Source: Pelagicoccus enzymogenes (GTDB lineage: Bacteria; Verrucomicrobiota; Verrucomicrobiia; Opitutales; Opitutaceae). From it: a stretch of 64,000 bases of DNA. Within the stretch, counting starts at the first letter, position 1; each line of letters begins with the position of its first letter. Below the pieces are notes generated by a model. It saw only the letters and a program-made list of their open reading frames with translations, was not told the origin of the DNA and searched no databases. Positions 45,611 through 64,000 of this stretch are shown piece after piece. Location of the stretch: assembly GCF_014803405.1 (NCBI RefSeq), contig NZ_JACYFG010000051.1:496001-560000 (forward strand), given 5' to 3'. Made by a program: the position numbers and the translations under genes.

Positions 45611-45681
45611 TTATTACTATCAGGTCTGGAATTATAAATATCAGATTTCATTGACAGGGTGCGTTTGCTGATAATTATAAG
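45611..45681 (+). promoter_or_regulatory. Promoter and triple LacI-type operator of the first TonB receptor
   Basis: TTGACA (45651-45656) with TTATAA (45675-45680), 18 bp apart, forms the promoter. Three copies of the 13-bp motif TTATAAnTATCAG lie here: 45611-45623 (11 of 12 fixed bases), 45632-45644 (12 of 12), and 45668-45680 on the other strand (12 of 12), the last covering the -10. The first two are 21 bp apart, two helical turns. The same motif precedes the seven-gene operon and the first LacI gene. Confidence 0.75.
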
Positions 45682-45759
45682 GAGCCAAGTTGGCCGGCTT
45701 GGGTAATGTTCGGCCGATTGGATTACCCCCCAATAAGACAACCCTAACCCTATCGACTT

Positions 45760-48700
45760 ATGAAACTATCTTCTCGTGGGAGATTTGCGCGAGTATCTGC
45801 CAACGCGTGTGCGTTGCCTCGCTTTTTAAGCCTATTCGTGGCCGTGATGGCCATGGGTATTAGCGCCTTTGGCCAGGACAATGGTCGCATCACTGGGCGT
45901 GTACAGGATGCCTCGTCCGATCGCTACATGGAAAACGTGACGGTGACGGTGACGGAAACTGGCGATTCGGTAAGAACCGTTTCGGACGGAACCTACCGTT
46001 TGTCGGGGCTGCCCTCAGGAACCTACTCCTTGGACATCGAGCACGTGGGCTACTTTTCGCGTTCGATCATGGTAGAGGTCACCGCGGGACAGACCGCGAC
46101 CCCTGCTACCGTCGTTCTCAAAAGCCGCAACACCTTCAATGACAGCGACGAAGTGTTCGAGCTAGAGGCCTTCGAGGTGAAAAACGAAGCCGACGCTTAC
46201 AGCCGCGCGATCAACCAGCAGCGGGTGTCCGACTACAACGTAAACGTGGTAGACTCGGGCGCCTTCGGCGACGTGACGGAGGGCAACGTGGGCGAGTTCG
46301 TCAAGTTCCTGCCGGGCGTGAACATCAACTACGTGGCGGCGGACGCTCGCACCATCACGGTTCGGGGCATGGCGGACAACTTTACGCCGGTCACAGTGGA
46401 CGGCAATCGCATGGCGAGCGCCGCATCGGGCGCCAAGGCTCGCGACTTCGAGCTGGAGCAGCTTTCCATCAACAACATCGAACGTGTGGAAGTGGCCAAG
46501 GTGCCCACTCCGGACATCGCAGCGGACTCTTTGGGAGGCGCGGTTAATCTCGTGAGCAAGAGCGCCTTCGAGCGCGATGGCCGTGAGATCAAGTACCGAG
46601 TCTACTTTAGCGGCAACAGCGAGGACTTGGACTTGGGGTCGACTCCAGGTCATGGCGACTTCACCAGCCACAAGATCAAGCCAGGTTTCGACCTGACTTA
46701 TTCCGACGTCTTCAAGGACGGAACCTTGGGGGTTATCTTCAACTACACGAACTCCAACCAGTTCAACGAACAGCACCGCGCTCGTTCGCGTTGGGTAACT
46801 GACAACTCCGGGGAGGGGATCGGCACGCCGATCTTGCGTCGCTACCAGATCCAGGACGGGCCCAAGTACACGCACCGCGAGTCGTACCATGTCAAGACCG
46901 ACTACAAGCTCGGCGAGAACACGGTGATTTCCGGTAGCTTGCAGTTCAACGACTACTCTTCCGAGTTCCGCAACCGCAACATCACTTGGGATACGAACAT
47001 CACGAGCACGACCGACAGCGACGGCAACGACGCGGATTCGGTCATTTCACCTGATTACATGCTAGGCGACGTGGGACGTGGCGACATCGACCTCGGCGGT
47101 TCCTGGAGAAACAAGTACGGGGACACCTGGCATGGCGATTTCAAGATCAAGCACTACGGCGACGTTTGGACCTACGAAGCGGGAGCCTTCTCTTCGACGG
47201 CAACCAACTTCTACGATGACTTTTCGCAGGGCATGATCATGGCCGTGATCGGCGATGACGACTACACGGGCCGCTTCGAATTCAGCAATCTGGGCGATCC
47301 GATGGGAGGACGTATTGAATATACCCCTACGTTGACGCTTTACGATTCCAGTGGAGCTGTGGACCCAACCTACGGCGTTGGTAGCCTCTCCACTTTCGAC
47401 CTCGACGAAGTGCAAACACGCGAGCAAGACGCTCAGGACGACTTCACTGGCTTCAACTTCGACATGAAGCGTAACATCCGAGTCGGCGACAGCACGGGCT
47501 ACTTCAAGATGGGAGTTCGCTACCAAAAGCAGGAGCGTCACGCGGATCGTAACCGTACTCGTTTGCGCCACGTTAGCTCGACCTATGACGACACTGGATT
47601 GCCAGCTGAGCAGTATTACTCCGGGGAAGGCGCCATACACATTGGCCCTGGCATTATCCAATGGCCCGACTACGAGGATATCTACGACTACTACGCGGCG
47701 AACCAGGACAACTTCGAATGGGGCAGCCGTACGGAGGAAAACATCGTCGAGATGGCGAACCAGCTCTACACTGCGGAAGAAAAGATCTCAGCGGCCTACA
47801 TGATGGGGCAGTTGAACTTCATGGATTCCAAACTCAAGGTCACTGGTGGTTTCCGCTACGAAAAAACGGAGATGACAGGCGAGGGCGGCTTCTTCAACGA
47901 GTCGCTAGGGGACGGAATCACGGACGAAACAGAGCGCTTGATGGCTCAGTGGAGTCAACGCAAGGTATCCTCTACTTCGTACGACGATCTGTATCCAAGC
48001 ATTCACTTCGTATACGACTTCAACGAGCACTTCTTGATGCGTCTTGCTTACGCGAATACGATCGGACGCCAAGACTTCAGCTCCATCATTCCCCAGATCG
48101 AAATCGACACGCCAGACGAAAGCGAGATGGAGTCGGACGGTTCTGTTGAGTTCAACAACACGGGCCTCAAACCGCAGGATGCGGACAACTACGATTTGAC
48201 CTTCGAGTTCTATCCAGATGCGGGTGGCACCATTTCCGCAGGTCTCTTCCGCAAGGAGATCTCGAACTACATCATTGGATACAATGGTATCTTGAGCCAG
48301 CTCAGCGATGCGGAGTTTGCCGCTTTTGACTTGCCGAACTTCTTGGCCGATACGCCGGAGTACCAGTTCGAAACTCAAATCAATGGCGGTGAGGCGACAA
48401 TCGATGGCATGGAGTTCAGCTACTTCCGTTCCTTGAACGGCAGCGGCATGCCGGATTGGTTGAGCAGCTTCAGCGTCTTGGCCAACGCGACCTTCATCGA
48501 CGTGAAGCGCAACATCAACGGAACGGTCATCAACGAGTTGGAAGACATGGTGGAAGAGAGTTACAACCTCGGCCTGACCTACGACCGTGATCCGCTGAAG
48601 ATCCAGTTGAAGTTCAACAGCAAGGGCGAGCAGCTGGTCGGCGGATTCTCGGACATGAGGACCTTCGACTCCAACGGAGACTTCGTGAGCAACTTCCAGC

Positions 48701-48903
48701 TCTACCGCGACAAGCTCGAGCAAGTTGACCTTAACATTGACTACAAGATCAACGACAAGGCGAAGATCTTCGTCAGCGGACGTAACATCTTCAACAAGGA
48801 GCAGAAGCAGTTCGTTGCCAACGCGGACCGTAGCATCATGGTGCCGGACCGCATTGAAGAGTTCGGCGTCCAGTGGGCGGTGGGCGTCAAGGGGAAGTTC
48901 TAG
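45760..48903 (+). CDS. TonB-dependent receptor with carboxypeptidase-regulatory-like domain
   Basis: Outer-membrane receptor for active import, 1047 residues. A signal peptide (FVAVMAMGISAFGQD) is followed by a CarboxypepD_reg-like domain (NGRITGRVQDASSDRYMENV) and the Opitutae-type leader VFELEAFEVKNE. The plug domain is next (FVKFLPGVNINYVAADARTI, VTVDGNRMASA), then a 22-strand beta-barrel ending in Phe (VQWAVGVKGKF). This layout resembles SusC-like and oligosaccharide receptors, but no SusD partner is present. A strong promoter with three LacI-type operators lies upstream and a terminator follows, so it is a monocistronic part of the sugar regulon. Its A/C-rich leader has no Shine-Dalgarno. 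Confidence 0.93.
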   Translation: MKLSSRGRFARVSANACALPRFLSLFVAVMAMGISAFGQDNGRITGRVQDASSDRYMENVTVTVTETGDSVRTVSDGTYRLSGLPSGTYSLDIEHVGYFSRSIMVEVTAGQTATPATVVLKSRNTFNDSDEVFELEAFEVKNEADAYSRAINQQRVSDYNVNVVDSGAFGDVTEGNVGEFVKFLPGVNINYVAADARTITVRGMADNFTPVTVDGNRMASAASGAKARDFELEQLSINNIERVEVAKVPTPDIAADSLGGAVNLVSKSAFERDGREIKYRVYFSGNSEDLDLGSTPGHGDFTSHKIKPGFDLTYSDVFKDGTLGVIFNYTNSNQFNEQHRARSRWVTDNSGEGIGTPILRRYQIQDGPKYTHRESYHVKTDYKLGENTVISGSLQFNDYSSEFRNRNITWDTNITSTTDSDGNDADSVISPDYMLGDVGRGDIDLGGSWRNKYGDTWHGDFKIKHYGDVWTYEAGAFSSTATNFYDDFSQGMIMAVIGDDDYTGRFEFSNLGDPMGGRIEYTPTLTLYDSSGAVDPTYGVGSLSTFDLDEVQTREQDAQDDFTGFNFDMKRNIRVGDSTGYFKMGVRYQKQERHADRNRTRLRHVSSTYDDTGLPAEQYYSGEGAIHIGPGIIQWPDYEDIYDYYAANQDNFEWGSRTEENIVEMANQLYTAEEKISAAYMMGQLNFMDSKLKVTGGFRYEKTEMTGEGGFFNESLGDGITDETERLMAQWSQRKVSSTSYDDLYPSIHFVYDFNEHFLMRLAYANTIGRQDFSSIIPQIEIDTPDESEMESDGSVEFNNTGLKPQDADNYDLTFEFYPDAGGTISAGLFRKEISNYIIGYNGILSQLSDAEFAAFDLPNFLADTPEYQFETQINGGEATIDGMEFSYFRSLNGSGMPDWLSSFSVLANATFIDVKRNINGTVINELEDMVEESYNLGLTYDRDPLKIQLKFNSKGEQLVGGFSDMRTFDSNGDFVSNFQLYRDKLEQVDLNIDYKINDKAKIFVSGRNIFNKEQKQFVANADRSIMVPDRIEEFGVQWAVGVKGKF

Positions 48904-48943
48904 CCAAGCGACTCATAGGTTCAGTATCTGAGTTTTGACTACA

Positions 48944-49115: not shown

Positions 49116-50177
49116 CTATCTTGCGACTGCGGTAGGGACCGGTCCGGTCGATTCTCTGACTTTCAGGACTGCGGGCAGAGTGACGTCGGTGAGGCCTGGT
49201 GATTTCGTCTCCAGGGAGTGCGTTAGGATACGGCCAGCTTCCCGGCCCATGACCTCGGGGTCCGCTCCGGCGGAGGTGAGGGTGGGGTGCTCTTCCTCGC
49301 AGACCCGCGTCATGTCGAAGGCGGCGATGCTGACAGTGGTTCCGATTTCGACTTGATGCTGCAGCAGGCGGTTGATGGCTCCGCGGGCCATCAAGGCGTT
49401 CAGGCAGATCCATGCGGTGGGCAAGGGATCCATCTGCGAAATGATTTGTTTGGCGGCTTGGTAGCCCTCGTTGCGGTCGGCGCCGTCGAGAGTGACCTTG
49501 GCTGGCTTTTCCAAGCTGAGCCCTCTTTTGGCCAAGGCAGCTTCTACGGCTGTCAGGCGATCGTCGTGTCGCCCCTTGGGCTTGCCGCCGCCCAGCCAAG
49601 CGAAGCTTCGATGGCCTAGATCGTAGAGGTGCTTGACTAGGAGCTCTCCGGATTCGAACTCGTTCGAGAGCACGGAGTGGCACTGTCCGGAAGCTCGGGC
49701 GGACACATAGACGACTGGCCGGTCCGTCTCCAGCACTTGGCTGAGGAAAGTGGGCCTGACCTCGCCCATGATAGCGATGCCGCGAACCGACTCCGGGAAA
49801 TGGGAGGCGAAGCTGCCCGCCGAGCTGTTGATGTCGTCCTCGGAGCCGAGGTAGACGGTCTTGAGCTTGTGCTCCAAGAGGTGCTCGTGGAGGCCTTGGT
49901 GGATGTGGCTGAAAAAGTTGCTCTTGTTGGCGAGCTTCAGCGGGGAACGCAGGATGTAGCCGATGGTGCGTTGCTGGAATTCGCCCAGCGAGCCCTCGAT
50001 CTTCATGCCCTTGGGGGTGTAGCCTTGCTGGGCTGCCAGTTCGCGGATGGCGTTGTAGGTCTTTTCGGAGATGCCTTTGGTGTGGCCGTTGAGCGCCATC
50101 GATACCAAGGCTTGGGAGCAGCCGATCTCCTTGGCGATTTGGGCTTGGGAAATGCGTTTCTTCTTGGGTTGGGTCAT
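49116..50177 (-). CDS. LacI-family transcriptional repressor (first copy)
   Basis: Sugar-responsive repressor, 353 residues. I start at 50177 (MTQPKKKRISQAQIAKEIG); the open frame runs upstream but without conserved sequence. The HTH (SQAQIAKEIGCSQALVSMALNG) and hinge helix are followed by a periplasmic-binding-protein-like effector domain (GHRSFAWLGGGKPKGRHDDR, LNALMARGAINRLLQHQ). It is divergent from the symporter operon and very similar to the second LacI at 60182. Operator motifs lie at 50209-50221 and 50308-50320. Most likely it represses the operon, the first receptor and itself until an intermediate of the sugar route binds. Confidence 0.92.
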   Translation of the reverse strand: MTQPKKKRISQAQIAKEIGCSQALVSMALNGHTKGISEKTYNAIRELAAQQGYTPKGMKIEGSLGEFQQRTIGYILRSPLKLANKSNFFSHIHQGLHEHLLEHKLKTVYLGSEDDINSSAGSFASHFPESVRGIAIMGEVRPTFLSQVLETDRPVVYVSARASGQCHSVLSNEFESGELLVKHLYDLGHRSFAWLGGGKPKGRHDDRLTAVEAALAKRGLSLEKPAKVTLDGADRNEGYQAAKQIISQMDPLPTAWICLNALMARGAINRLLQHQVEIGTTVSIAAFDMTRVCEEEHPTLTSAGADPEVMGREAGRILTHSLETKSPGLTDVTLPAVLKVRESTGPVPTAVAR

Positions 50178-50291: not shown

Positions 50292-50321
50292 TTGACTCTG
50301 ATAATAGCTGATAATTATAAG
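50292..50321 (+). promoter_or_regulatory. Promoter/operator of the seven-gene sugar operon
   Basis: TTGACT (50292-50297) and TTATAA (50315-50320) are 17 bp apart. CTGATAATTATAAG (50308-50321), identical to the element at 45668-45681, covers the -10. A half-site CTGATAATA (50298-50306) and a weak copy at 50389-50401 are nearby. The arrangement is a classic repressor-over-promoter design. Confidence 0.75.
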
Positions 50322-50405: not shown

Positions 50406-52163
50406 ATGGATACTACCCTCACTCAGTTCGACTACGGCGTCGTCGCCTTCTATTTTTTGTTCATGTTGGCCATTGGTCTGCTTTTTCGGAAGTTCATCGG
50501 CAACACGAGCGACTTTTTCCGTGGCGGCGGCCAGATGGCTTGGTGGATGGCTGGCAGCAGCGCCTTCATGGTGCAGTTCAGCGCTTGGACTTTTACGGGG
50601 GCTGCGAGCAAGGCCTACCAGGATGGGCTTTTGGTCTTGGTCATATTCTTGGGCAACGCAGTCGGCTTTCTCGCCAACTACTGGTATTTTGCGGCCAAGT
50701 GTCGGCAAACGCGTGTCGTTACGGCGGTTGAGGCCATGCGTATCCGTTTTGGCAAGACAGCTGAGCAGGTCTTTACCTGGCTGCAGTTGCCGATCGGAAC
50801 GCTTTACGCGGGTATTTGGTTAAATGGACTCGGCGTGTTCTTTAGCGCCGTATTTGGGTTCGACATCGCGACGACCGTTTTGGTTACGGGCTTGGTAGTG
50901 CTCATTCTCTCCGTTACGGGAGGGAGCTGGGCGGTCGTCGCTTCCGATTTCATGCAAGTGCTGGTGCTGATGCCGATCAGCGTGGTGGCGGCATTCTTTG
51001 CCCTGAAGGAAGTGGGGGGCGTTGGCGAACTGGTGGAACGTTTTCCGGCGGATCGCTTTTGGGGCGGCGACACCAATTATTCGACCCTGATCTGGATTTG
51101 GGTGGTAGTGATCTTGCTCAAGCAATTTGCCTCGACCAACAACCTGATGGATGCCTCCCGCTACCTTTGCGCTCGGGACTCGAAGGAGGCTCGCAAGGGA
51201 GCTCTCCTGGCGTCCGCTCTCTTCGTCATCGGTCCGGCTGTTTGGTTCATTCCGCCAATGGCCTCAGCCATTTTGTATCCAGATCTTGGAGAAATGTTTC
51301 CGCAGCTCAAGAAGCCCGAGGAAGCTAGCTACGTCGCGATCTGTATCATGACTTTGCCGGCAGGCATGCTGGGACTGTTGATGTCCGGCATCTTTGCGGC
51401 TACCATGTCTTCCATGGATAGTGGTCTAAACCGCAACGCCGGCATATTCGTGCGCAACTTCTATTTGCCGATTCTCAGGCCGCAGGCGAGCGAGAAGGAA
51501 CTGCTGCTTGTGAGCAAGGTTTCCACGGTGGTCTTCGGCTTGTGCATCATCGTGGCGGGTATCCAGTTTAGCCAATTGAAGGACATTGGCTTGTTCGACC
51601 TTATGCTGCAGTTTGGCGCCCTGATCGCGATTCCTATGCAGGTGCCCTTGATTTGGGGTATTCTGGTGAAGAAGGTGCCGGACTGGGCCAGTTGGGTGAC
51701 GATCTTGGTGGGGCTTTGCGTCTCCTTCGTGATCAAGACGTGGATGACGCCTGATTGGATTCAAGGTATCCTCGGTTTGGATACTCCCTTTTCGGGACGC
51801 GAAGGAAGCGACCTTTCTTTGATCCTCGGGGTCGTTATCAACCTGACGATCGGTTCCGCGGTCTATCTTGGCTCTACCGTCTTTTACAAGGACCAGTCTG
51901 AGCATCGGAAGAAGGAGGTAGACGATTTCTTCGTAAGCCTGAACACTCCAGTTGAAGCGAGCGAGACCGGCTCGGCGGAGCGTGACTCCTCTCAAGGAAA
52001 AGCGCTGGGCATTCTGTCGATGATATACGGCGGGTTTGTCTTTCTCTTGGCAGCAATTCCCAATCCACTGCTTGGACGCCTTGCCTTTGTCTTTTGCGGT
52101 TTGGTGTTGTTGGGGATTGGATACGCTCTCGCGCAGCAAGGAAAAGGAAAGGCTAAGGCATGA
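50406..52163 (+). CDS. Sodium/solute symporter (SSS, SLC5 family)
   Basis: Inner-membrane Na+-coupled transporter, 585 residues. I start at 50406 (MDTTLTQFDYGVVAFYFLFM); the open frame is longer but covers the promoter. It has about 14 hydrophobic segments. Landmarks are FLIGNTSDF-like FIGNTSDFFRGGGQMAWWM, SAWTFTGAASKAYQDG and FAATMSSMDSGLNRNAG, the sodium-site region of the family. In this context it probably imports the unsaturated uronate or disaccharide released by the secreted lyase, as SSS proteins often do in uronate loci. It is the first gene of the seven-gene operon and overlaps the next by 4 bp. Confidence 0.9.
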   Translation: MDTTLTQFDYGVVAFYFLFMLAIGLLFRKFIGNTSDFFRGGGQMAWWMAGSSAFMVQFSAWTFTGAASKAYQDGLLVLVIFLGNAVGFLANYWYFAAKCRQTRVVTAVEAMRIRFGKTAEQVFTWLQLPIGTLYAGIWLNGLGVFFSAVFGFDIATTVLVTGLVVLILSVTGGSWAVVASDFMQVLVLMPISVVAAFFALKEVGGVGELVERFPADRFWGGDTNYSTLIWIWVVVILLKQFASTNNLMDASRYLCARDSKEARKGALLASALFVIGPAVWFIPPMASAILYPDLGEMFPQLKKPEEASYVAICIMTLPAGMLGLLMSGIFAATMSSMDSGLNRNAGIFVRNFYLPILRPQASEKELLLVSKVSTVVFGLCIIVAGIQFSQLKDIGLFDLMLQFGALIAIPMQVPLIWGILVKKVPDWASWVTILVGLCVSFVIKTWMTPDWIQGILGLDTPFSGREGSDLSLILGVVINLTIGSAVYLGSTVFYKDQSEHRKKEVDDFFVSLNTPVEASETGSAERDSSQGKALGILSMIYGGFVFLLAAIPNPLLGRLAFVFCGLVLLGIGYALAQQGKGKAKA

Positions 52164-53236
52164 AGCTGACACGTAACTGCCTGCTACCGCTGCAAGCGAA
52201 TCGTGTTTGGCGGAGCTATCTTGGGGGGCGATCCTTGGATGAGATCGAGGGCCAACCGCAACCGGCTGACGGCAACTTTCCGGAAGACTGGATTGCTTCC
52301 TTAACCTTGGCGAACAATCCGGTGCAAGGGGACCCGGACGAAGGCTTGGCTAAGCTCACCAACGAGGATGGCGAATTGGTTCTGTTTTCAGATTTGGTCG
52401 AGAGCGACCCCGAGTTTTACTTGGGCAAGGAGCATGTCGCTCGTTTCGGTACGGATATGAGGATACTTGCCAAGTACTTGGATTCGGCGATCCGCTTGCA
52501 TTTCCAGGTGCATCCCACCACGGCATTCTCCGCGAAAAACCTTGGCATCAACAAGGGGAAGACGGAGGCCTATGTCATCTTGGCGATCCGCGACGAAATC
52601 GAGCAGCCTTACATCTACGCGGGTTTTCAGCGTCCGCCGAGCAAAGGGGAGTTGAGGAAGTGGATCGAGACGCAAGACATCGCCTCCTTGGAGGCTTGTT
52701 TTGACAAGATACCTGTCAAGGTTGGCGACGTCTTCCTCATTCCGGGCGGTTGTCCGCACGCGCTTGGCGAGGGGATCTTGATGGTCGAGCTCATGGAAGC
52801 GAGTGACCTGGTGGTGCGTTTCGAATTCGAGCGCGGCGGATATGTGCTTCCGGAAGAGTCACGCTTCATGGGGCGCGGACTGGACTTTTGCCTGAACGTT
52901 TTCGATCTGCGCCCGAAATCGGTTGCGGACTTTGCGTGCCAACCGCGGGTGTTGCACGAATTTGCGGACGGCTCCGTGCAGAAGCTGCTGATCGGGGAGG
53001 ATCGCACTCGCTGCTTCGAGGCTCGATCCACTCGTATTGAGAAAGCGGTTACGAAAAGCGAGGATGGGTTCTACATCTTGGTCGTGACAGCGGGATCGGG
53101 AACGGTGGAAATAGGTGGGCAAGTCTGCGAATTGAAGCAGTATGACCGTGTGTTCGTAGCCGCAGAGGCTGGCGAAGTAAGCTTTAAAACCCATGCTGGA
53201 CTCGAGTTTCTGGAACTTGCAGGGCCAGTCCTCTGA
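52160..53236 (+). CDS. Type I phosphomannose-isomerase-like cupin protein
   Basis: A 358-residue protein with the double beta-barrel of class I mannose-6-phosphate isomerases. Metal-binding candidates are HFQVHPTTAFSAKN, NKGKTEAYVIL and IPGGCPHALGEGILMVELME. A C-terminal cupin-like domain follows (VTAGSGTVEIGGQVCELKQY). Classical ManA makes mannose-6-P from fructose-6-P; inside this operon the substrate could be a ketose or ketouronate produced by the other enzymes. The true substrate is not evident. It overlaps the symporter by 4 bp (ATGA), showing translational coupling. Confidence 0.78.
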   Translation: MKLTRNCLLPLQANRVWRSYLGGRSLDEIEGQPQPADGNFPEDWIASLTLANNPVQGDPDEGLAKLTNEDGELVLFSDLVESDPEFYLGKEHVARFGTDMRILAKYLDSAIRLHFQVHPTTAFSAKNLGINKGKTEAYVILAIRDEIEQPYIYAGFQRPPSKGELRKWIETQDIASLEACFDKIPVKVGDVFLIPGGCPHALGEGILMVELMEASDLVVRFEFERGGYVLPEESRFMGRGLDFCLNVFDLRPKSVADFACQPRVLHEFADGSVQKLLIGEDRTRCFEARSTRIEKAVTKSEDGFYILVVTAGSGTVEIGGQVCELKQYDRVFVAAEAGEVSFKTHAGLEFLELAGPVL

Positions 53237-53247
53237 GGAACATTTTG

Positions 53248-54258
53248 ATGACTTCTACCAATCTCATCGTTGTAACATCCGTCGAGCGTGACACTTTTTT
53301 GGTGGACGGTCGGCTCGAGGAACTCAAAGGGCTAGTCGCTCCCTGTCGGGTCGTTGACGTGGAATCCTATTCGCAGGAATCCTGGATCGAACTGTTGCGG
53401 GAGACCAATCCGAAGATCCTGGTAGCGGGTTGGAAGGTGAAGCCGTTGCCGGTGAACACCCGCTCGGCGATCGCTCCGGCCTTGGAGTACATTTGCTATT
53501 TGCCGGGCTCGATTCGGCATTTCGTTCCGAGGGAATTGATCGAGGAGGGCGTCCAAGTTACGAATTGGAGCTCTTCGATAAGCCGTATCGTAGCGGAATG
53601 CGCTTTGTTGCTCAGTCTTTCGTGCATGCGGAGAGCGGCCTACTGGGCCCACCAGATGCACGACCGAGGAGGCTGGAAGGACGCGACGACGCAGACGCAG
53701 TCCTTGTTTGACCGTCGGGTCGGCATCCATGGGTTCGGAGCGATCGCCAAGGAGTTGCTGCGGCTTTTGCGTCCCTTCACCAACGAAATTTCAACCTACA
53801 CGGAAGGCGTTCCGGAAGCTGTTTTCGAGGAGCATGGAATTCGCAAGGTGGACAGCCTGGAGCGCCTCTTTGCCGAGAACGACTTGATTATCGAATTGGA
53901 GGCCTTGACGCCGGAGCGACACAAAATCGTGGGCGAGAAGCTGCTCAGAAGCATTCCGGAGGGAGGCGCGTTCGTCAACGTAGCCCGCGGCGCGCTTGTG
54001 GACGAGGACGCATTGGTGCGGGTTGCCGAAGAAGGGCGCATCCAGGTGGGCTTAGATGTCTATTCGGTGGAGCCCTTGCCGCCGGACCACCCGTTCCGAG
54101 GCTGTCGCAACATTAACATGCTGCCGCATTTGGGAGGTCCTACCACCGATCGTCGCCGCGATGCTGCAGATCGAGCCTTGGAGAATCTTCGTCGCTTCCA
54201 ACGCGATGAGCCGCTTCGCGACGCTATAACCCTTGAGGTGTACGATCGCTCGACTTGA
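53248..54258 (+). CDS. D-isomer-specific 2-hydroxyacid dehydrogenase
   Basis: NAD(P)-dependent dehydrogenase of 336 residues. ATG at 53248 is preferred over TTG at 53245 because of the Shine-Dalgarno-like TGAGGAAC nine bases upstream. The Rossmann motif is RRVGIHGFGAIAKELLRLL. Catalytic Arg is in VNVARGALVDED, Glu in VYSVEPLPPDHP and His in NMLPHLGGPT, all as in the family. The catalytic set is complete, so activity is likely. In the operon it could reduce a keto-acid or oxidise a hydroxy-acid from the sugar route; the substrate is unknown. Confidence 0.9.
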   Translation: MTSTNLIVVTSVERDTFLVDGRLEELKGLVAPCRVVDVESYSQESWIELLRETNPKILVAGWKVKPLPVNTRSAIAPALEYICYLPGSIRHFVPRELIEEGVQVTNWSSSISRIVAECALLLSLSCMRRAAYWAHQMHDRGGWKDATTQTQSLFDRRVGIHGFGAIAKELLRLLRPFTNEISTYTEGVPEAVFEEHGIRKVDSLERLFAENDLIIELEALTPERHKIVGEKLLRSIPEGGAFVNVARGALVDEDALVRVAEEGRIQVGLDVYSVEPLPPDHPFRGCRNINMLPHLGGPTTDRRRDAADRALENLRRFQRDEPLRDAITLEVYDRST

Positions 54259-56241: not shown

Positions 56242-57009
56242 ATGATATCTGAGAAGTTAAAGGGTAAGCGCGTACTGGTGACAGCAGGGGCGCAAGGAAT
56301 TGGAGAGGCGATCACGCGACGCTTTATTGAAGCGGGCGCCCATGTGGCGGTTCACTATTTTTCCAGTGACACGGTGGCTCGATCATTGGTCGAGCTGGCC
56401 GAGTCGAAGGGCTTGAAGGCGGTGGCGGTACAAGGCGATCTTAGCAAGCGCGAGGATGCGAAGCGGGTTGCGTCCGAGGTAAGGTCCGCTTTGGGCGGCC
56501 TCGACGTATTGGTCAACAATGCCGGCTCCTTGATCGGCCGCCGCGATTTAAGCGATATCGAAGACGCGTTCTGGAAGTCGGTTTGGGATGTCAACGTGAC
56601 TTCGAATTTCCTGATTACCCAAGCGGTGCTCGATCTCCTGGTGGAGAACGAGGGGAGCAGTATCGTAAACCTCTCGTCCTTGGCGGGCCGCAAAGGCGGA
56701 CACGCAGGGTCGATCGTCTACTCGGCGGCGAAGGGAGGAATCCTTACTTGGACGCGGTCGCTTGCCACGGAGCTTGGACCCAAAGGGGTGAGGGTGAACG
56801 CGGTGGCTCCCGGTCTGATCTTGGGAACCTCTTTTCACAACACGCACACGACGCAAGAGTCGGCGGACGCAACGGTTCGCTCGCTCCCGCTCGAGCGAGC
56901 GGGCAATCCGGACGACGTGGCTCGAGCGGTTCTGTTCTTAGCTTCTGAATACGACGGTTTCATTAGTGGCGCGACTTTGGACATCAACGGAGGCGTGTAT
57001 GGCTGCTAA
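56242..57009 (+). CDS. Short-chain dehydrogenase/reductase (SDR)
   Basis: Classical SDR of 255 residues. The nucleotide motif is TAGAQGIGEAI, the structural NNAG follows (LVNNAGSLIG), then the catalytic Ser (NLSSLAGRKGG) and YxxxK (IVYSAAKGG). The C-terminal ERAGNPDDVARAVLFLASEY and DINGGVYGC are typical. SDRs in uronate loci reduce unsaturated uronate-derived ketones (as KduD or DEH reductase do), which is a reasonable guess. The next gene starts inside its last codons (11-bp overlap), so it is tightly linked to the secreted lyase. Confidence 0.92.
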   Translation: MISEKLKGKRVLVTAGAQGIGEAITRRFIEAGAHVAVHYFSSDTVARSLVELAESKGLKAVAVQGDLSKREDAKRVASEVRSALGGLDVLVNNAGSLIGRRDLSDIEDAFWKSVWDVNVTSNFLITQAVLDLLVENEGSSIVNLSSLAGRKGGHAGSIVYSAAKGGILTWTRSLATELGPKGVRVNAVAPGLILGTSFHNTHTTQESADATVRSLPLERAGNPDDVARAVLFLASEYDGFISGATLDINGGVYGC

Positions 57010-59287
57010 AACGATTTCACTAGTATTGGCGGGTGCCTGGGCATGTGCCGCGGCGTTCGGTTTGGACGAGGAAGAGTTTTACCATACCTACGACGGTTTC
57101 GAGCTTCCGGCGGAAGTTGTCATGCCGGAGGAAGAGGTGCACCCATCGCTTTGGTTCTCGGAGCAAGAGATCTGGGCGATCTCCCAAAAGCGTTCCGGCG
57201 ACGAGGTGTCCAGGGCCTATTGGGAGGCTGTTTTGAACAGCGAGTACGTGTTGGCCCAACTTCCCCCGATCCCAAGGCTGGAGGACGAAAAGCAGGTTGT
57301 GCACAAGTACTACGGAACCTTGACGCAGGTTGCGGCCTACAACGCCTTCCTGTATCAAGTGAGCAATGACGACAAGAAGCAGGCTTACCTCGAGAAGGCG
57401 GTGGAAGCCTTGAAGCGCGGATACGCGGGACCGCTTTACCAGCTCGATCCTATCGTGAAAGGCAGCGCGGTGGATGAGATCTACCAAGGGGTTTGGGCCC
57501 AGAACTTCGCGGCCGCTTACGACTGGGTGCAACCGGCTCTGTCAGCTGAAGACGATGCACTGATTCGAGGGCACTTGGTGGAGCATGCCCGTTATATGTA
57601 CGAGAACCTTTGGTCTTGGGCCAGCAGCCCGCACAACCATCTTTCCAAGCCCGCATGGGGATTGGGCAGCACGGCATTGTGCTTGTCGGACCATCCGGAG
57701 GCCAAGGCTTGGCTTGAGCGAGCGGTGGCCGCCTCGAACGCGAATACGCGCTATTTCTTCAGTGGAGACGGCATCTATCGCGAGGGATCGCACTACTATA
57801 TTTTCTCGATGATCAACTTTCTGCCGTTTCTCTATCATTACGAGAACACGAGCGGATACAACGCGTTTGGGCCTTTCCAGCCAGCCTTCGAGTGGCCCGT
57901 CTTGACCCGCAACGGCAAGGGGTGGATGCCAAACTTCGAGGACAGTTTCATTCGTCCCTATCCATCGCAGCTGGTCGCGAAGGCGTATCGTTACGCTCCG
58001 ACCCGATTGCACACCGAGGCTCCTCTTTCTGAGGTGTTGCAGTGGAATTTTCGGAACACGGACTATGAAGCCTTCGACAAGTCCGAGGAGCGTTCGGGCT
58101 TCAACTACACGGGAGCGAGCTGGGATTATCCAAAGGCCCTTGTCGAATACCTCTGTTATGAGCCCAGCATCGCGGCGACGGCTCCGGACGTGGCCCCGGT
58201 GCAGTTTTTGGGCTCGGGGCAAAGCGTGTTTCGCAGCGACTGGAAATCGGGCGACCCGAAGTCGCGTACCCTGATTTTTCAGGGTGTCGCGGAGGCTGAC
58301 AATCACGAGCACTACGACCACTTGAGCTTCGTCTTGCATGCGGAAAATCAAATGATGTCGTCGGACGCTGGATACACGAGGAAGAGTTACGGCGAGCCAA
58401 TGCGCAAGGAGTGGTATCTGACGGCCGAGGCTCACAACGTCGTTTTGGCGAATGGCGAGGCCCCGGTCGATGTCGCGGCGAATTTGGCTCCATTGTCGCG
58501 TTCGCAGCTGATGTCGCCTTTTTTCTCCAGCGAGATAAAGCAGGCTCCCTACGCGGCGGGGGGCAGTCACCAGCGTTTGGTCGCGATGCTGGAAGGGGAT
58601 CGCTTCGCTATCTTGGATTTGGTTGAATTGCCGGAGCCGGGACGCATGGAAATCGTGATGCACGGCGGGCGAGCGAGCCTGGATCGCGGCGAGGAGCTGA
58701 TGGCCTGGACGTATCAAGACGACGACTACGGACCGGCTGCTGGATTGAGGCAGTGGTTCTGGGGAAAAGGGTTTAAGACGAAAGAGCTCGCTGGCGAGCT
58801 GACCTACATCAAGGGCGATTACGCCGCCTTTCCGTACGTGAAGCATGAGAAGCAGGGAGCGAACGGCCTCGGGCTGACGCTCTTGGACCCCGTTGCTAAA
58901 AGCGAAGTGGGCGTCGATTACGCCTATGAACGAAAGTCGGATACCACGATCGTGGTTCGCAACAGCGAAGGAAGCGAGTGGATCGCGGCCAACGCCACTC
59001 GGGCGAGAATCGGCGAAGGCGGCTGGGAGTCTGACGCCTTGTTCACTTTTGTGAGATCAGGAACGGAAGGTCGGCTGCGGGCAGCTGCGGTAGAGGCTAC
59101 TTACCTCCGCGTCGGCGAGGGCGTCGAATTTGAGTTCAATGGTCCGGTTACGATGGCTACGGAAACGAGCAGGAATGGCGTCTACTTTTATTTCTCCACC
59201 TCGGTTCCGCTCCAAGGCATCGCTCGTTGCGGGGGAAAAGTTTATCGACTCGACCTAAGCGATAGCGGTTTAGTGGTCTTCCGATGA
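56999..59287 (+). CDS. Secreted heparinase II/III-type polysaccharide lyase
   Basis: The ATG at 56999 gives 762 residues with a signal peptide (TISLVLAGAWACAAAFGLDE), so it works in the periplasm or outside. The first half is an alpha-helical (alpha/alpha) barrel and the C-terminal half a beta-sandwich, as in PL12/15/17/21 lyases. Candidate catalytic residues are Asn-His in SPHNHLSKPAWG, Tyr in GDGIYREGSHYYIF, and the His-rich NHEHYDHLSFVLHAE. These match the Asn/His, Tyr and His positions I recall for PL17 (alginate oligosaccharide lyase). Such lyases cut uronate-containing chains by beta-elimination. The exact family and substrate cannot be set from sequence alone. It overlaps the SDR by 11 bp and the next gene by 4 bp. 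Confidence 0.82.
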   Translation: MAAKTISLVLAGAWACAAAFGLDEEEFYHTYDGFELPAEVVMPEEEVHPSLWFSEQEIWAISQKRSGDEVSRAYWEAVLNSEYVLAQLPPIPRLEDEKQVVHKYYGTLTQVAAYNAFLYQVSNDDKKQAYLEKAVEALKRGYAGPLYQLDPIVKGSAVDEIYQGVWAQNFAAAYDWVQPALSAEDDALIRGHLVEHARYMYENLWSWASSPHNHLSKPAWGLGSTALCLSDHPEAKAWLERAVAASNANTRYFFSGDGIYREGSHYYIFSMINFLPFLYHYENTSGYNAFGPFQPAFEWPVLTRNGKGWMPNFEDSFIRPYPSQLVAKAYRYAPTRLHTEAPLSEVLQWNFRNTDYEAFDKSEERSGFNYTGASWDYPKALVEYLCYEPSIAATAPDVAPVQFLGSGQSVFRSDWKSGDPKSRTLIFQGVAEADNHEHYDHLSFVLHAENQMMSSDAGYTRKSYGEPMRKEWYLTAEAHNVVLANGEAPVDVAANLAPLSRSQLMSPFFSSEIKQAPYAAGGSHQRLVAMLEGDRFAILDLVELPEPGRMEIVMHGGRASLDRGEELMAWTYQDDDYGPAAGLRQWFWGKGFKTKELAGELTYIKGDYAAFPYVKHEKQGANGLGLTLLDPVAKSEVGVDYAYERKSDTTIVVRNSEGSEWIAANATRARIGEGGWESDALFTFVRSGTEGRLRAAAVEATYLRVGEGVEFEFNGPVTMATETSRNGVYFYFSTSVPLQGIARCGGKVYRLDLSDSGLVVFR

Positions 59288-60105
59288 AGTTAGCATTTAC
59301 GACCTTGGCGTGTCCCGGTTGGGACTTGGAGACAATTATCGATAGCGCGGCCGATTACGGCTTCGATGGTATTGATTTTCGTGGAACCAGCGAGGGGATA
59401 GACGTGACGACGCAATCCGCTTTCACCACGGGTATCGAGGCGACGCGTAAACGCATCGAGGACAAGGGGCTAGTGGTTAGCGGCGTGAGTTCGAGTATCC
59501 GCATTTGCGATACCGACAAGTTTGGAAGCAACTTGGAAGAGGCCAAGCGGACGATTCCGGTGGCTTTAGCCCTCGGCGCCAAGCAAGTCCGCGTTTTTGG
59601 ATACGGCGACGAAGACGCCTCGACCGAAGACCGCGTGCGGCAGGGAGTGCGATGCATGGGCGCGATCTTGGAGTTGGATGGGGCGGATCAAATCGACTGG
59701 CTGCTGGAGATGCACGACTATTGGGTCGCCTCCTCGGATTGCCGCTTGCTGATCGACGGGGTGGACCATCCCCGTTTTCAAATCCTCTGGGACATCGGTC
59801 ACACCACCCGCATCGGGACGGAGTCACCCATGGAGACCTTTGCGGCTCTCGGGTCCCGAATTCCCTGCGTGCACCTGAAGGATGCGATCTTCGACGAGAA
59901 TCAGGAATTCGCCATGAAGGACGGTTGGCGCTATGCCTTGCCGGGCCGAGGGCAGCTTCCTCTTAAGGAGGCGGTTTCCGTGCTGCAGTCAGTGGGCTAC
60001 CAAGGGTGGTACGTTTTCGAACACGAGAAGCGCTGGCACGCGGACTTGGAGGAGCCGGAGGTGGCTTTGCCGGCATACGTCGCTTGGATGCGTTCCTTGG
60101 GCTAG
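59284..60105 (+). CDS. Sugar-phosphate isomerase/epimerase-like TIM-barrel protein
   Basis: AP-endonuclease-2-type TIM barrel (xylose isomerase-like), 273 residues. The N-terminus KLAFTTLACPGWDLETIIDS and YGFDGIDFRG are typical. Metal-ligand regions include LLEMHDYWVASSDCRLL, ILWDIGHTTR, VHLKDAIFDE and WYVFEHEKRWH near the C-terminus. The family isomerises or epimerises sugars and inositols, e.g. ketouronates and hydroxypyruvate. In this operon it would act after the dehydrogenases. It overlaps the lyase by 4 bp (ATGA) and ends the operon; a family B repeat starts 31 bp later. Confidence 0.88.
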   Translation: MKLAFTTLACPGWDLETIIDSAADYGFDGIDFRGTSEGIDVTTQSAFTTGIEATRKRIEDKGLVVSGVSSSIRICDTDKFGSNLEEAKRTIPVALALGAKQVRVFGYGDEDASTEDRVRQGVRCMGAILELDGADQIDWLLEMHDYWVASSDCRLLIDGVDHPRFQILWDIGHTTRIGTESPMETFAALGSRIPCVHLKDAIFDENQEFAMKDGWRYALPGRGQLPLKEAVSVLQSVGYQGWYVFEHEKRWHADLEEPEVALPAYVAWMRSLG

Positions 60106-60135: not shown

Positions 60136-60190
60136 GGCTGTCTGGGCCCTTCGACCTTTGTTCAGGCTAGACCAGACAGCCCTACCCTCG
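60136..60190. repeat. REP-like palindrome, family B, copy 2
   Basis: GGCTGTCTGG (60136-60145) and CCAGACAGCC (60172-60181) enclose a 26-nt loop and are followed by CTACCCTCG, as in copy 1 at 42979-43009. The first three bases of that tail (60182-60184) are the reverse complement of the stop codon TAG of the second LacI gene, so the repeat supplies its stop. Confidence 0.75.
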
Positions 60191-61252
60191 GGCGGCGGGC
60201 TTGGCGGCCGCGGTCGTGTCTCGCACGCTGAGGTGAGCGGGGAGGGTGAGGTCGCACAACGATTCGGACTCCTCCTCGATTGCTTGCAAAATGATGCGTC
60301 CCGCTTCCCTGCCGATCTTTTCCGGGTCGGAGCCGGCGGAGGTGATTTCAGGCCGCTCCTCGGTGCAGACGCGAGTCATATCGAAGGCGGCGAAGCTCAT
60401 GTCGCCGGGAATACGGAATCCGTTTTGGAAGAGGTAGTTGATGGCTCCGCGGGCCATGAGCGCGTTGAAGCCGATCCAGGCGGTGGGCATCTCCAGTCCC
60501 TTCGAGAGGGCGGTCTGGTGGATTTGCTGGGCGGCGTCGAAGCCTTGGTTGCGGTCGGCCTCCACGGTGGCGATGTTGAAAGAGGGAGCCAGCTTCAGTC
60601 CCCTTTGTTTGAGGGCGGCCTTCAGGGCAGTCAGGCGTTCCTCGCGACGGCCGATGGGCGTGCCGCCGATCCAAGCGAAGCTGCGGTGCCCTAGTTCGTA
60701 GAGGTGGTCAACCAGGAGCTCGGCGGAATCCGCTTCGTTGGAGAGCACGGAGTGGCACTTGCCGGTAGCGCGAGCGGATATGTAAACGAGCGGCTTTCCG
60801 ACCAGGCGGAGTTCCTCCAGCAGGCCGGGATTGATCTGGCCCATGACCGCAATCGCCTTGAGGGCGCTTGGAAGGTGCTCGCTCAGAGAATGGCGTTCGC
60901 CGGTAAAGTCGTCCTCGGAGCCGAGGTAGACGGTCTTGATTTGGTGTTGGCTGAGGTGCTCGTGAAGGCCTTGGTGGATGTGGCTGAAGAAGTTGCTTTT
61001 GTTCGCCAGCTTCAGGGGGGAGCGGAGGAGATAGCCTACCGTGCGGATGGGGTCGGCCCCCACAATTTCGTCGAGCTTCATGCCCCGAGGCGAGTAGCCG
61101 TGCTGGGCGGCGATGCGCCTCACCTTCTCCAGGGACTTGGCGGCGATCCCCTTGGTGCGGCCGTTGAGGATAAGCGAAACGAGAGCCTGCGAGCAGCCCG
61201 CCTCGCGGGCGATTTGGGCTTGGGATACGCGTTTATTAGATTTGGAGCTCAT
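60182..61252 (-). CDS. LacI-family transcriptional repressor (second copy)
   Basis: A 356-residue close paralogue of the LacI at 49116; I start at 61252 (MSSKSNKRVSQAQIAREAG) rather than the TTG at 61264. HTH: SQAQIAREAGCSQALVSLILNG. The effector domain shares LANKSNFFSHIHQGLHEHL and LNALMARGAINYL-like FNALMARGAINYLFQNG with the first copy, so they probably bind related effectors. The recognition-helix differences (SLILNG versus SMALNG) fit its different operator. It faces away from the second TonB receptor, with operator-like sites between them (61265-61278, 61405-61418), so it probably represses that receptor and itself. The last residues AARG and the stop lie in a family B repeat. Confidence 0.9.
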   Translation of the reverse strand: MSSKSNKRVSQAQIAREAGCSQALVSLILNGRTKGIAAKSLEKVRRIAAQHGYSPRGMKLDEIVGADPIRTVGYLLRSPLKLANKSNFFSHIHQGLHEHLSQHQIKTVYLGSEDDFTGERHSLSEHLPSALKAIAVMGQINPGLLEELRLVGKPLVYISARATGKCHSVLSNEADSAELLVDHLYELGHRSFAWIGGTPIGRREERLTALKAALKQRGLKLAPSFNIATVEADRNQGFDAAQQIHQTALSKGLEMPTAWIGFNALMARGAINYLFQNGFRIPGDMSFAAFDMTRVCTEERPEITSAGSDPEKIGREAGRIILQAIEEESESLCDLTLPAHLSVRDTTAAAKPAARG

Positions 61253-61264
61253 GATCGGGGCCAA

Positions 61265-61278
61265 TTAATAGGTATCAG
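61265..61278. promoter_or_regulatory. Operator-like site at the second LacI gene
   Basis: TTAATA-GG-TATCAG lies 12 bp before the ATG (61252, minus strand). It shares its left half with the site at 61405 and its right half (TATCAG) with the first repressor's motif. Autoregulation is suggested. Confidence 0.5.
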
Positions 61279-61404
61279 TTTATTAGTAGCAAGTGTTAGT
61301 TAATAAATTTTCAGAAACTTTGTAAGTATCTGAATGATAGGGTATAGTGTTATTAATGAGGGCCGAGTATGAGAGTGCTTGAATTAATAATATGAAAGTA
61401 AAAG

Positions 61405-61418
61405 TTAATAACTATTAA
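61405..61418. promoter_or_regulatory. Operator-like inverted repeat before the second TonB receptor
   Basis: TTAATA-AC-TATTAA is a perfect 6-bp inverted repeat with a 2-bp spacer, in the centre of the 339-bp gap between the second LacI gene and the second receptor. The rest of this gap holds AT-rich near-copies but no gene. Confidence 0.55.
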
Positions 61419-61591
61419 TTTTCGATTGACGGCGAAGCTTCCTTGGGGCGAAAGTTGCGGGGTCGCTGCGGTCGCACGTGGTGGCTTCTTATCCTACTAG
61501 AGGCGGCGCTCCTGGGCGCTTCTTCGGTCGTGCAAGGCAGGCGGGGCCTGTCCACGCGATTTGCCAGAACACCCCAACCCTACATCTCATC

Positions 61592-64000
61592 ATGAAATTT
61601 AGTCCCCCCGACTTGAGGACCTCTCGTGGGTCCGTACTAGGATCGGCCGTTGCCGGTTCTTTGCTCGTCGCCTTGCTGGCGATGCCTAGCTTCGCCCAGG
61701 AGGGCGAGGAAGAAGTGTTCACTCTGAGTCCGTTTTCGGTAACGGCTACGGACGAAGGTGGTTACTCGGCTGCGGAGTCGATCACGGGTTCGCGCATTCG
61801 GACTCGCATCGCGGAATTGCCCTATGCGGTAAACGTGGTGACGAACGAGTTCTTGGAAGACTTCGCAGCCGACTCCCTCGACGACCAGTTTGCCTATGTC
61901 AGCTCCTTTGCGGGCGACGAGGTGGAAGGCTGGTATCAGCTTCGTGGATTCAAGCAGCAGACGCAGTTGCGCAACGGGTTCACGCGTCTCGGTCTCATCG
62001 ATCGTGTAACGGTATCGCGGGCGGAGGTCATCAAAGGCCCTGCGGCAGGCAGCTATGGCAAGATCAACCCAGGCGGCATCATCAACATCGTCACCAAGTC
62101 GCCTTCTTCCACGCCTCAGCAAGAGTACTCGGTGGAAGTGGGCACGGACGACTACACGCGTCTTGCCTTGGCAACTACCGGTCCGATCACCAAGGACGAG
62201 AAGCTGCTCTATCGATTGGACAGCGCTTGGCTGACGCGCGACGACTGGGGCTTCACCGGTCGCGAACAGTTTGCCGTCTCTGGCGTACTGGAGTACAACC
62301 TTTCCGAGAACACTCAGTTCACCCTGGAGAAGGAGTACCTGGAACGCGCTCAATCGCGCGGGCGTTCGCTTTTGCCGATACGCGATAGCGGAGGCTCTCG
62401 CGACTACCTTCGCCTCGCCACGGAGCTCTACAACTACAGCTTCCTCGGCCCGGACGAAATCAACGACCGCGACATCGACACCACCGACTTCCGTTTCTCG
62501 CACAAGTTCAGCGAGACCTTTTCGATGCGAGCCGCGTACAACAACTACGATCGCTACTTCGATCAGTTCACAGGCTACCCGGGAGAAATCGCTATCGACG
62601 TGGACGGCCGCGATCCGAGCGAAATCACTGCAGAGGTGGTGATGGAGGAGGGCGTTGTTCGCTTCGTCGAACCTGTAAACTACGAGATTTGGGAATCCGG
62701 CGATTCCTTCCAGGTCGACTTCCTGAAGGAATTCAACACGGAGCGTATCCAAAACCGACTCTTGGTCACCTTCGACAAGAACGAGCAGCGTGACATCCGC
62801 GTGCGTTCGCGCTTGAACCGCAATACCACTGCCGAACAGCAGGCGATGCTGGAAGAGCGTTTCGGCATCGACATTACGAACAAGGACCTGCGCCGCAATT
62901 CCTTCTTCAACGCGATGCAGGACCGTCGCTTCGACGTTTCCAATCCCGACTACAGCTGGATCGACCAGCAGTCCCGCGACCTCGTTCGCGAAACGGACAC
63001 CTTCGGAATTGTGGGTGACAACACCGACCCCGTCGGTATTGGAGTTATTGATACAAATTCCGACCGTACAGTTGATGTGGAAGGCGTGTTCATCGCGAAC
63101 CAGATGAAGGCTCTCGACGGCGACTTGAATATCAACATGGGCGTTCGCTATGACGAAGTGACGACCGATCTCTACAACGCACCGTTCAGCTTGAGCTCCT
63201 CCGCGCAAAGCGCGCCCAGCACCACGAGCGAATCCGTTTCCGAAGAAACCTACCAGTTCGGCATCAACTACAAGCTTGCCGAAGGCTTGATGGTTTACGG
63301 AAACACCAGCACCTCCTTCTTGCCGAGCCGCGACTTCAATACGGTTGATCCGGTCACGGGCGAGCCGCTCGCCGAAGCTCAGATCTTTGAAAACGAGAAG
63401 GGCGACGGAATGGAGATTGGCTTTAAGGGGGACGGCTTCGGCGACAAGCTAAGCTTCACGCTGGCCTACTTCGACATCAAGCGCGAGGATGTGGTCATCA
63501 ACGTCAGCGCGCCGGATCCGAACAATCCGGGAGAAACCTTCACTTACAAGGCGCAAAACGGTTTGGAGCAAGCGACGGGTTACGAGTTTGACTTCAACTT
63601 CCAAGCGTCTCGGGCCCTTAGCATTACCGGTGGTATTGGATTTGTGGATTCGGAAATTGCGATCACGGACAATGCGGTCCTTGAAGGATTGCCAGTAGCG
63701 GAGATTCCTGACTACAGCGCCAATATCGTAATGAAGTACTCGATCCGCGAGGGGAAGGCCAAGGGCTTGTTCTATACCTTCGGCATTCGCGACACCGGCG
63801 AGTCTCGCTACTCGAACTCGGGCGGCCGCGAAACGATTATCCAAGACGGTTACACGCTCTTCGAAGGTGGCGTTGGCTACAACTGGGGACAGGATCGCAA
63901 GCACACCTTGCAGCTGACCGCCAAGAACATCTTCGACGAGGAATACACGCGAGCCTCTGCCAAGCGGGGTGATCCGCAGCGATTCATTTTCCGCTACCGC
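61592..64000 (+). CDS. TonB-dependent receptor (second; 3' end cut by window)
   Basis: The frame begins MKFSPPDLRTSRG and stays open for 803 codons to the window end, where it is within a few residues of a typical receptor terminus (KRGDPQRFIFRYR). A signal peptide (SLLVALLAMPSFAQEG) is followed by the leader VFTLSPFSVTATDEG and the plug (RTRIAELPYAVNVVTNEFL, KGPAAGSYGKINPGGIINIV). The barrel then follows. It has no carboxypeptidase-like domain, unlike the first receptor, and its plug resembles siderophore-type receptors. Position beside the sugar operon and the LacI pair suggests uptake of the same or a related oligosaccharide. The leader (CCCCAACCCTACATCTCATC) has no Shine-Dalgarno. Confidence 0.92.
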   Translation, partial: MKFSPPDLRTSRGSVLGSAVAGSLLVALLAMPSFAQEGEEEVFTLSPFSVTATDEGGYSAAESITGSRIRTRIAELPYAVNVVTNEFLEDFAADSLDDQFAYVSSFAGDEVEGWYQLRGFKQQTQLRNGFTRLGLIDRVTVSRAEVIKGPAAGSYGKINPGGIINIVTKSPSSTPQQEYSVEVGTDDYTRLALATTGPITKDEKLLYRLDSAWLTRDDWGFTGREQFAVSGVLEYNLSENTQFTLEKEYLERAQSRGRSLLPIRDSGGSRDYLRLATELYNYSFLGPDEINDRDIDTTDFRFSHKFSETFSMRAAYNNYDRYFDQFTGYPGEIAIDVDGRDPSEITAEVVMEEGVVRFVEPVNYEIWESGDSFQVDFLKEFNTERIQNRLLVTFDKNEQRDIRVRSRLNRNTTAEQQAMLEERFGIDITNKDLRRNSFFNAMQDRRFDVSNPDYSWIDQQSRDLVRETDTFGIVGDNTDPVGIGVIDTNSDRTVDVEGVFIANQMKALDGDLNINMGVRYDEVTTDLYNAPFSLSSSAQSAPSTTSESVSEETYQFGINYKLAEGLMVYGNTSTSFLPSRDFNTVDPVTGEPLAEAQIFENEKGDGMEIGFKGDGFGDKLSFTLAYFDIKREDVVINVSAPDPNNPGETFTYKAQNGLEQATGYEFDFNFQASRALSITGGIGFVDSEIAITDNAVLEGLPVAEIPDYSANIVMKYSIREGKAKGLFYTFGIRDTGESRYSNSGGRETIIQDGYTLFEGGVGYNWGQDRKHTLQLTAKNIFDEEYTRASAKRGDPQRFIFRYR

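Follow-up and report, generated by a model that had tools for sequence, protein, structure and literature searches.

Which polysaccharide does a tightly packed operon of Pelagicoccus enzymogenes serve, and by what chemistry would the resulting uronates be used? The operon lies in a window of 64,000 nucleotides (contig NZ_JACYFG010000051.1, positions 496,001 to 560,000 of the forward strand; coordinates below count from the first letter of this window) within a genome of 6.2 Mb in 60 contigs. An initial annotation of the window had described a uronate-type carbohydrate locus with no close named counterpart. The evidence from lyase families supports a uronate-polysaccharide locus. We give roughly even chances to the reading that this is a LacI-controlled locus for growth on alginate, or on a 1,4-linked uronan much like it, in which a cytoplasmic core of four proteins would make, reduce and isomerise an unsaturated uronate. 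The core itself is a real, conserved unit, and the reactions proposed for it are predicted. In the open-licence literature searched, we found no description of this core, no paper that names the genes of the operon together, and no characterised locus with the same gene order.

The operon consists of seven genes on the forward strand, and their coordinates bear out the spacing originally reported. An SSS (SSF) sodium symporter (50406-52163; PF00474, 126.9 bits) overlaps by 4 bp a cupin with the phosphomannose isomerase (PMI) fold (52160-53236), which is followed after 11 bp by a D-2-hydroxyacid dehydrogenase (HADH; 53248-54258) and, after a further 16 bp, by a DUF2264 protein (PF10022; 54275-56218). 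These four genes form the core. A short-chain dehydrogenase (SDR; 56242-57009) begins 23 bp beyond DUF2264 and shares 11 bp with an exported-looking lyase of polysaccharide lyase family 39 (PL39; 56999-59287), which in turn overlaps by 4 bp a xylose-isomerase-like TIM barrel (59284-60105). Pfam assignments, including those of HADH, SDR and the TIM barrel, agree with the names given earlier. As had been proposed, the lyase appears to be exported whereas DUF2264 and the redox enzymes appear cytoplasmic, judged by eye from their N-termini. A Pfam scan of the locus proteins likewise gave no match to SusD, sulfatase, sugar kinase or aldolase, no search aimed at KDG kinase having been made.

The identity of the lyase bears on the substrate. 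Its match to the catalytic domain of Dp0100, a PL39 alginate lyase, has an E value of 3.2e-193 over residues 28-726, with 288 of 590 compared positions identical (49%; first six alignment blocks, window residues 28-625). Three of the four named PL39 motifs (PMC10056287) are kept, namely PHNH (211-214), YREG (260-263) and ADNH (433-436), while the fourth, RYLLF, reads RTLIF when aligned to Dp0100. For comparison, AlyRm3, which is an active alginate lyase and was counted in 2023 as the second characterised PL39 member, is 40% identical to Dp0100 (PMC10056287). The Dp0100 alignment spans the DUF4962 and Hepar_II/III regions, of which DUF4962 contributes to the catalytic region of that PL39 enzyme (PMC9971899). 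Membership of the window protein in PL39 is shown by this sequence match, and alginate would be its predicted substrate. The lyase can no longer be called uncharacterised or without a close named counterpart, given the Dp0100 match, and we dropped that description. Several kinds of family evidence, including those from related loci described below, support a substrate of the alginate type.

The claim of no close named counterpart fails for DUF2264 as well, which has characterised relatives in the uronate dehydratases of glycoside hydrolase family 154 (GH154). Among solved structures, its only sequence relatives are BcGDH (9o4u, 9nwf) and a GH154 'beta-galactosidase'. GH154 has only recently been re-read as a dehydratase family, and BcGDH acts as a 4,5-dehydratase, preparing terminal glucuronate for attack by GH88 (PMC12269599). 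In that enzyme Y229 is the proposed base and Y289 the acid, ten active-site alanine mutants had no detectable activity, and changing Trp178 to alanine abolished activity (PMC12269599). Alignment to 9nwf pairs N172, N173, F177, Y227, R280, Y284 and Y346 of the window protein with N176, N177, F181, Y229, R285, Y289 and Y354 of BcGDH, and E67 and R71 (BcGDH E74 and R78) are also kept, as seen from family conservation and an alignment to 8oi4. Both the lyase and DUF2264 retain all catalytic residues that could be checked. Trp178 of BcGDH, however, is H174 in the window protein.

This single replacement divides the family. Tryptophan occupies the position in all 23 aligned relatives of one branch (7 of its 30 members were not aligned), whereas histidine occupies it in 22 of 22 rows of alignment A1, a set not chosen by that motif. 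A second set independent of the motif, 65 genes from a PF10022 search of relatives' loci, comprises mostly long-frame cases chosen by hand and has several genomes in common with the first; it holds 28 H genes, 36 W genes and one E gene, the last at L044 (L numbers are our labels for loci) and aligned as W in the Trp-branch alignment. Genes for HADH lie within 700 bp of 24 of the 28 H genes, of none of the 36 W genes, and not at L044. The four H genes that lack one are at L052, L069 (at a contig start), L072 and L075, the last encoding a protein only 25% identical and outside the tree. In the DUF2264 tree, 60 H-type rows separate from 5 Trp rows (support 97/94). The closest named relatives of the window's DUF2264 belong to Pelagicoccus species. 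The clean Trp/His split, together with the swapped genomic partners, offers a testable way to divide the GH154 family.

The neighbourhood of the H-type genes was surveyed in 72 named loci. Two peptide patterns served to find them, and because one contains NNH, histidine at that position is partly built into this set. After loci with short flanks were dropped, 68 of these 72 and 27 of 30 Trp-branch loci could be evaluated. HADH adjoins DUF2264 (at least 35% identity, within 300 bp, same strand) in 58 of the 68 H-type loci compared with 0 of the 27 Trp-branch loci (Fisher p about 1e-15, a strength overstated by the relatedness of the genomes). Among evaluable loci whose upstream flank reaches 9 kb or more, the cupin is present in 32 of 44, SSS in 34 of 44, and both in 31 of 44. 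Of the 44 H-type loci with flanks of 5 kb or more on either side, 36 carry a lyase-like or beta-helix gene, which lies no more than 500 bp away in 26. PL6-like genes occur in 14 of 44 H-type loci and PF05426 'Alginate_lyase'-like genes in 5 of 44; the queries behind these lyase and PL6 counts were taken in part from the loci or genomes being counted, and L140 and L106, having supplied queries, match themselves. The core recurs in alginate-type loci of Opitutales, and the Trp/His split offers a way to name it.

Individual relatives yielded further observations. H-type DUF2264 genes without adjoining HADH occur in a planctomycete (Aporhodopirellula, L096), an alphaproteobacterium (Tropicimonas, L114) and a Pontiellaceae bacterium (L146). 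In several Opitutales loci, large proteins of the glucose/sorbosone-dehydrogenase type are encoded upstream of the core, at L053:3162-5780, L060:3557-5500, L067:109-2700 and L088:5909-7789. The core genes of L089 (labelled Crocinitomicaceae) and L149 (Akkermansia muciniphila), and perhaps those of L124 (also Akkermansia muciniphila), group with Opitutales; these contigs appear to be mislabelled or misbinned.

Is the H-type protein then simply another BcGDH? An enzyme that merely dehydrates saturated terminal uronates at the 4,5 position, with a GH88/105 enzyme from another locus finishing the reaction, would account for the retention of every mutation-tested BcGDH active-site residue except Trp178, and the genome holds 14 PF07470 matches, 13 of them above the cut-off. 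The residue that is lost, however, is one whose alanine mutant is inactive in BcGDH (PMC12269599), and its replacement by histidine is uniform across A1. Moreover, a search with ten GH88/105 proteins of the same genome, used whole (with their other domains), found such genes in none of the 44 H-type loci, which span about 10-22 kb, compared with 5 of 30 Trp-branch loci of only about 2.5-4 kb. With the domain alone as query, the result was again 0 of 44, and 0 of 72 overall, against 5 of 30. The core is apparently not built for a hydrolase partner, and we consider an ordinary dehydratase unlikely.

The predicted structure of DUF2264 (pLDDT 87.6, pTM 0.90) suggests what else it might be. An alpha/alpha barrel is followed by a beta-sandwich, and Foldseek matches (E up to 0.001; best 50 of 123) place the barrel with GH154 and BcGDH (9o4u; TM by target 0.76-0.79, root-mean-square deviation 3.1-3.5) and the whole chain with two-domain lyases, namely PL15 Atu3025, PL17 Alg17C, GAGases and PL39 Dp0100. 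We propose that the H-type protein is a cytoplasmic uronate lyase or dehydratase. A more specific version, which we put forward tentatively and regard as less probable than the general reading, holds that it is a new cytoplasmic oligouronate lyase that replaces the PL15/PL17 exolyases, with His in place of Trp, and that with HADH and the PMI-fold isomerase it forms an undescribed keto-acid route, operating instead of or beside DehR.

The partner enzymes retain catalytic residues. The cupin retains all four PMI-type metal ligands (Q116, H118, E136 and H200) in 27 of 27 rows, and phosphomannose isomerases fill the top 17 places among the 50 fold matches listed for its model (pLDDT 93.3); its TIGR00218 score is 69.6 bits against an equivalog cut-off of 116.2, and its Pfam match is also below cut-off. 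HADH residues R247, E275 and H294 are invariant in 45 of 45 rows, SDR residues S146, Y160 and K164 in 19 of 19, and TIM-barrel residues E142, D170, H197 and E246 in 18 of 18, all rows being those that passed a length filter. For these four proteins, we take the chosen positions to be the catalytic ones of their families. The SDR is a candidate DEH/diketo-acid reductase (DEH, 4-deoxy-L-erythro-5-hexoseulose uronate), the TIM barrel a candidate sugar isomerase or epimerase, and SSS a proposed importer of uronate monomers or oligomers.

In the favored scheme, TonB receptors would import chains into the periplasm, where the PL39-type lyase would cut them to unsaturated oligouronates, and the SSS symporter would move small products into the cytoplasm. 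There the H-type DUF2264, which combines the two-domain build of exolytic lyases with the Tyr/Tyr/Arg/Asn site of the dehydratases, would convert a terminal uronate to an unsaturated sugar. This sugar would open to the 2-keto acid DEH, to be reduced by HADH, SDR or both, and the cupin and TIM barrel would perform aldose-ketose or epimer shifts. The end product would be a 2-keto-3-deoxy acid destined for a 2-keto-3-deoxy-6-phosphogluconate (KDPG) aldolase encoded elsewhere. Indeed, the genome has one KDPG aldolase, on another contig, whose neighbours gave no lead. The canonical downstream steps may therefore be shared from elsewhere in the genome, and the missing aldolase, once taken as a sign of a different route, says little; we dropped it as evidence for a new one. 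Beyond the locus, the genome carries one PF14592 (PL6-type) gene, and it has five heparinase-type genes including the window lyase. If true, the proposed core chemistry would add a branch to uronate catabolism.

A number of observations weigh against this scheme. Pfam reports only Hepar_II_III_C, and not DUF4962, for the window lyase. The best matches of the DUF2264 model mix dehydratases and lyases, and full-length TM values to the lyases reach only about 0.45-0.6. In 10 of the 68 evaluable H-type loci, HADH does not adjoin by the criterion used; L093 has it 748 bp away, and the contigs of L147 and L148 are only 5.1 and 3.6 kb. The SDR matches 3afm/3afn, listed as carbonyl reductase and presumably the DEH reductase A1-R, only as seventh of 129, and 4w7i, listed as DEH reductase A1-R', ranks lower still. 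A PL7 search of the genome was uninformative, its control being silent. The remaining two observations, a second lyase and the wider distribution of HADH, require a closer look at the locus and its relatives.

The first of these emerges beyond the window. The operon had been described as bracketed by TonB receptors and two LacI repressors. These genes are all present: receptor 1 (45760-48903, forward strand; TIGR01782 type, 362.2 bits against a cut-off of 310, with CarboxypepD_reg, plug and barrel domains), regulator 1 (49116-50177, reverse), regulator 2 (60182-61252, reverse) and receptor 2 (61592-64012, forward, the window ending at 64000). Receptor 2, however, does not close the locus but opens a second half that reaches to about 70457, and the window end splits the locus. 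The second DUF2264 was detected just past this end by a PF10022 search of the genome, and the next 32 kb were examined. The second half continues with a beta-helix protein with DUF4955 (64185-65768), SSS2 (65775-67535), HADH2 (67552-68562) and DUF2264-2 (68571-70457). An FeS-assembly protein (44977-45510) and a Dus gene (70472-71533) flank the whole. Four other Pelagicoccus/DG1235 loci (L078, L079, L080 and L082) share this gene order with some variation, which argues that the arrangement is more than chance.

Comparison of the halves shows that the locus is partly duplicated, with identities of 84% for SSS, 66% for HADH, 58% for DUF2264 and 57% for LacI; the two receptors are unlike each other. 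The two DUF2264 copies split within the Pelagicoccus/DG1235 group of the tree (support 100/98), and a relative (G007) has one PF10022 match. Receptor 2 resembles siderophore receptors (TIGR01783, 207.3 bits; cut-off 223.5) and, unlike receptor 1, drew no CarboxypepD_reg match. In DG1235 (L082), a beta-helix gene directly precedes SSS1. We found no paper naming DUF4955 in the open-licence literature searched. By sequence, the second half seems to carry a lyase resembling BT3328 where the first has PL39: the beta-helix protein matches NF058554, the BT3328 hyaluronan-lyase model, at 312.4 bits over positions 299-836 of 840, below the equivalog cut-off of 1100. We take BT3328 to be a PL29 enzyme.

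This resemblance invites the alternative that the substrate is another uronan, whether glucuronan, hyaluronan or chondroitin-like. Few PL39 members have been characterised, and poly-glucuronic acid is a substrate of a PL17 enzyme from Opitutaceae bacterium TAV5 (PMC5966431). Against this, the window lyase shares more identity with Dp0100 (49%) than the active alginate lyase AlyRm3 does (40%; PMC10056287), and related loci contain PL6-like and Alginate_lyase-family genes. Such a substrate appears improbable to us, and alginate, or a 1,4-linked uronan much like it, remains our preferred assignment.

The second observation concerns HADH outside the core. Close relatives, at E values up to 1e-60, occur in 32 of 387 genomes of a phylum sample, some without H-type DUF2264. 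Sixteen hand-chosen HADH regions were examined. In L165, L166, L167 and L170 the HADH gene neighbours lyase-type genes, DUF2264 being present in L166 and L167 but not in the other two. HADH also adjoins NamZ in L156 (6222-9953), where a glycerate kinase is also present, and in L168 (8014-10519), and lies one gene away in L159 (9044-13018). These NamZ-linked proteins nest among the Opitutaceae core HADHs in the tree, where the L101 row that bears the core label represents the other HADH of that locus. No uronate is expected at NamZ loci, which weakens the assignment, and HADH may be a broader 2-keto-acid enzyme. That HADH lies outside uronate chemistry proper and acts on a small hydroxy or keto acid such as glycerate, hydroxypyruvate or lactate would fit the NamZ neighbours, the glycerate kinase and the nesting in the tree, but is doubtful given the tight adjacency to H-type DUF2264 and to lyase-type genes at L165 and L170. 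As a separate matter, the proximity to NamZ exo-muramidase genes raises the possibility that the same dehydrogenase is reused for peptidoglycan sugars.

LacI control of the preferred alginate-type locus is suggested by both proteins and DNA. Peripla_BP_3 matches of about 85 bits support both regulators, which are 57% identical, while their DNA-binding-domain matches both fall below Pfam cut-offs. An operator-like palindrome, CTGATAATTATAAG, lies upstream of receptor 1 (45668-45681, forward strand), with a second exact copy between LacI1 and SSS1 (50308-50321, forward strand); CTKATAATTATMAG is found without mismatch at both places. Allowing up to two mismatches, three matches occur in the 64 kb window where 0.17 are expected. 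A one-strand scan of 11 loci found the palindrome, with zero or one mismatch, between LacI1 and the next operon in L078, L079, L080 and L082, and looser copies (one or two mismatches) before receptor 1 in L078, L079 and L080; L083, L084 and L088 have two-mismatch matches only, and L003, L081, L094 and L095 have none. The first window copy overlaps the -10 element of a promoter-like site (45651-45678), though such sites are not commoner than chance. Between LacI2 and receptor 2, a related, AT-rich imperfect palindrome with two mismatched pairs, AAGTTAATAACTATTAATTT (61402-61421), is a candidate operator of regulator 2, and L078 and L079 have a similar palindrome at the same distance.

Several other genes deserve mention. 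An open reading frame at 474-3617, which equals receptor 1 in length, was considered as a second receptor and rejected as a class I tRNA synthetase. A protein of 1138 residues (31737-35153) fuses MFS transporter, acyltransferase and AMP-binding domains, and another (37677-39911) contains two PPK2 polyphosphate-kinase stretches. About 12 kb downstream, a PcRGLX-like gene near an arabinofuranosidase-type gene (L004:2673-5561, window coordinates 82673-85561, beyond the window) marks a separate polysaccharide locus.

How, then, does this arrangement compare with known systems? The SusC/SusD pair is the feature of Bacteroidota-type polysaccharide utilization loci, whereas no SusD match was found among the scanned locus proteins. 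The cupin has the PMI fold and metal ligands in common with ManA but does not reach the TIGR00218 equivalog cut-off. BcGDH and GH154 (PDB 9O4U, 9NWF) match the window protein in PF10022, barrel fold and all but one active-site residue, yet differ in having Trp178 and a GH88 partner, whereas the window protein has His, an extra beta-sandwich, no GH88/105, and HADH, cupin and SSS as neighbours. The textbook alginate route runs through lyases, DEH, a DehR-type SDR, KDG kinase and KDPG aldolase; the locus provides a lyase and an SDR, and the genome an aldolase. To our knowledge, that route does not involve HADH, a PMI-fold cupin or DUF2264. Dp0100 of Defluviitalea phaphyphila (PDB 6JP4, 6JPH, 6JPN) resembles the window lyase along residues 28-726 and in PHNH, YREG and ADNH; its long CBM/FN3 tail (PMC9971899) is its own, and the window lyase lacks this tail and has RTLIF for RYLLF. 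The last comparison, made by description only, is with Verruconatronum alginivorum, the paper on which does not mention GH154 and shows no 2-hydroxyacid dehydrogenase in the available parts of its Table 2 (PMC13274419). A cluster upregulated on alginate in that organism (pgaptmp_000046-60) contains PL39, PL15 and two PL29 together with a putative SSF transporter for uronate, and the likeness to the present locus lies in the joint presence of PL39, PL29 and SSF in an Opitutales bacterium (PMC13274419).

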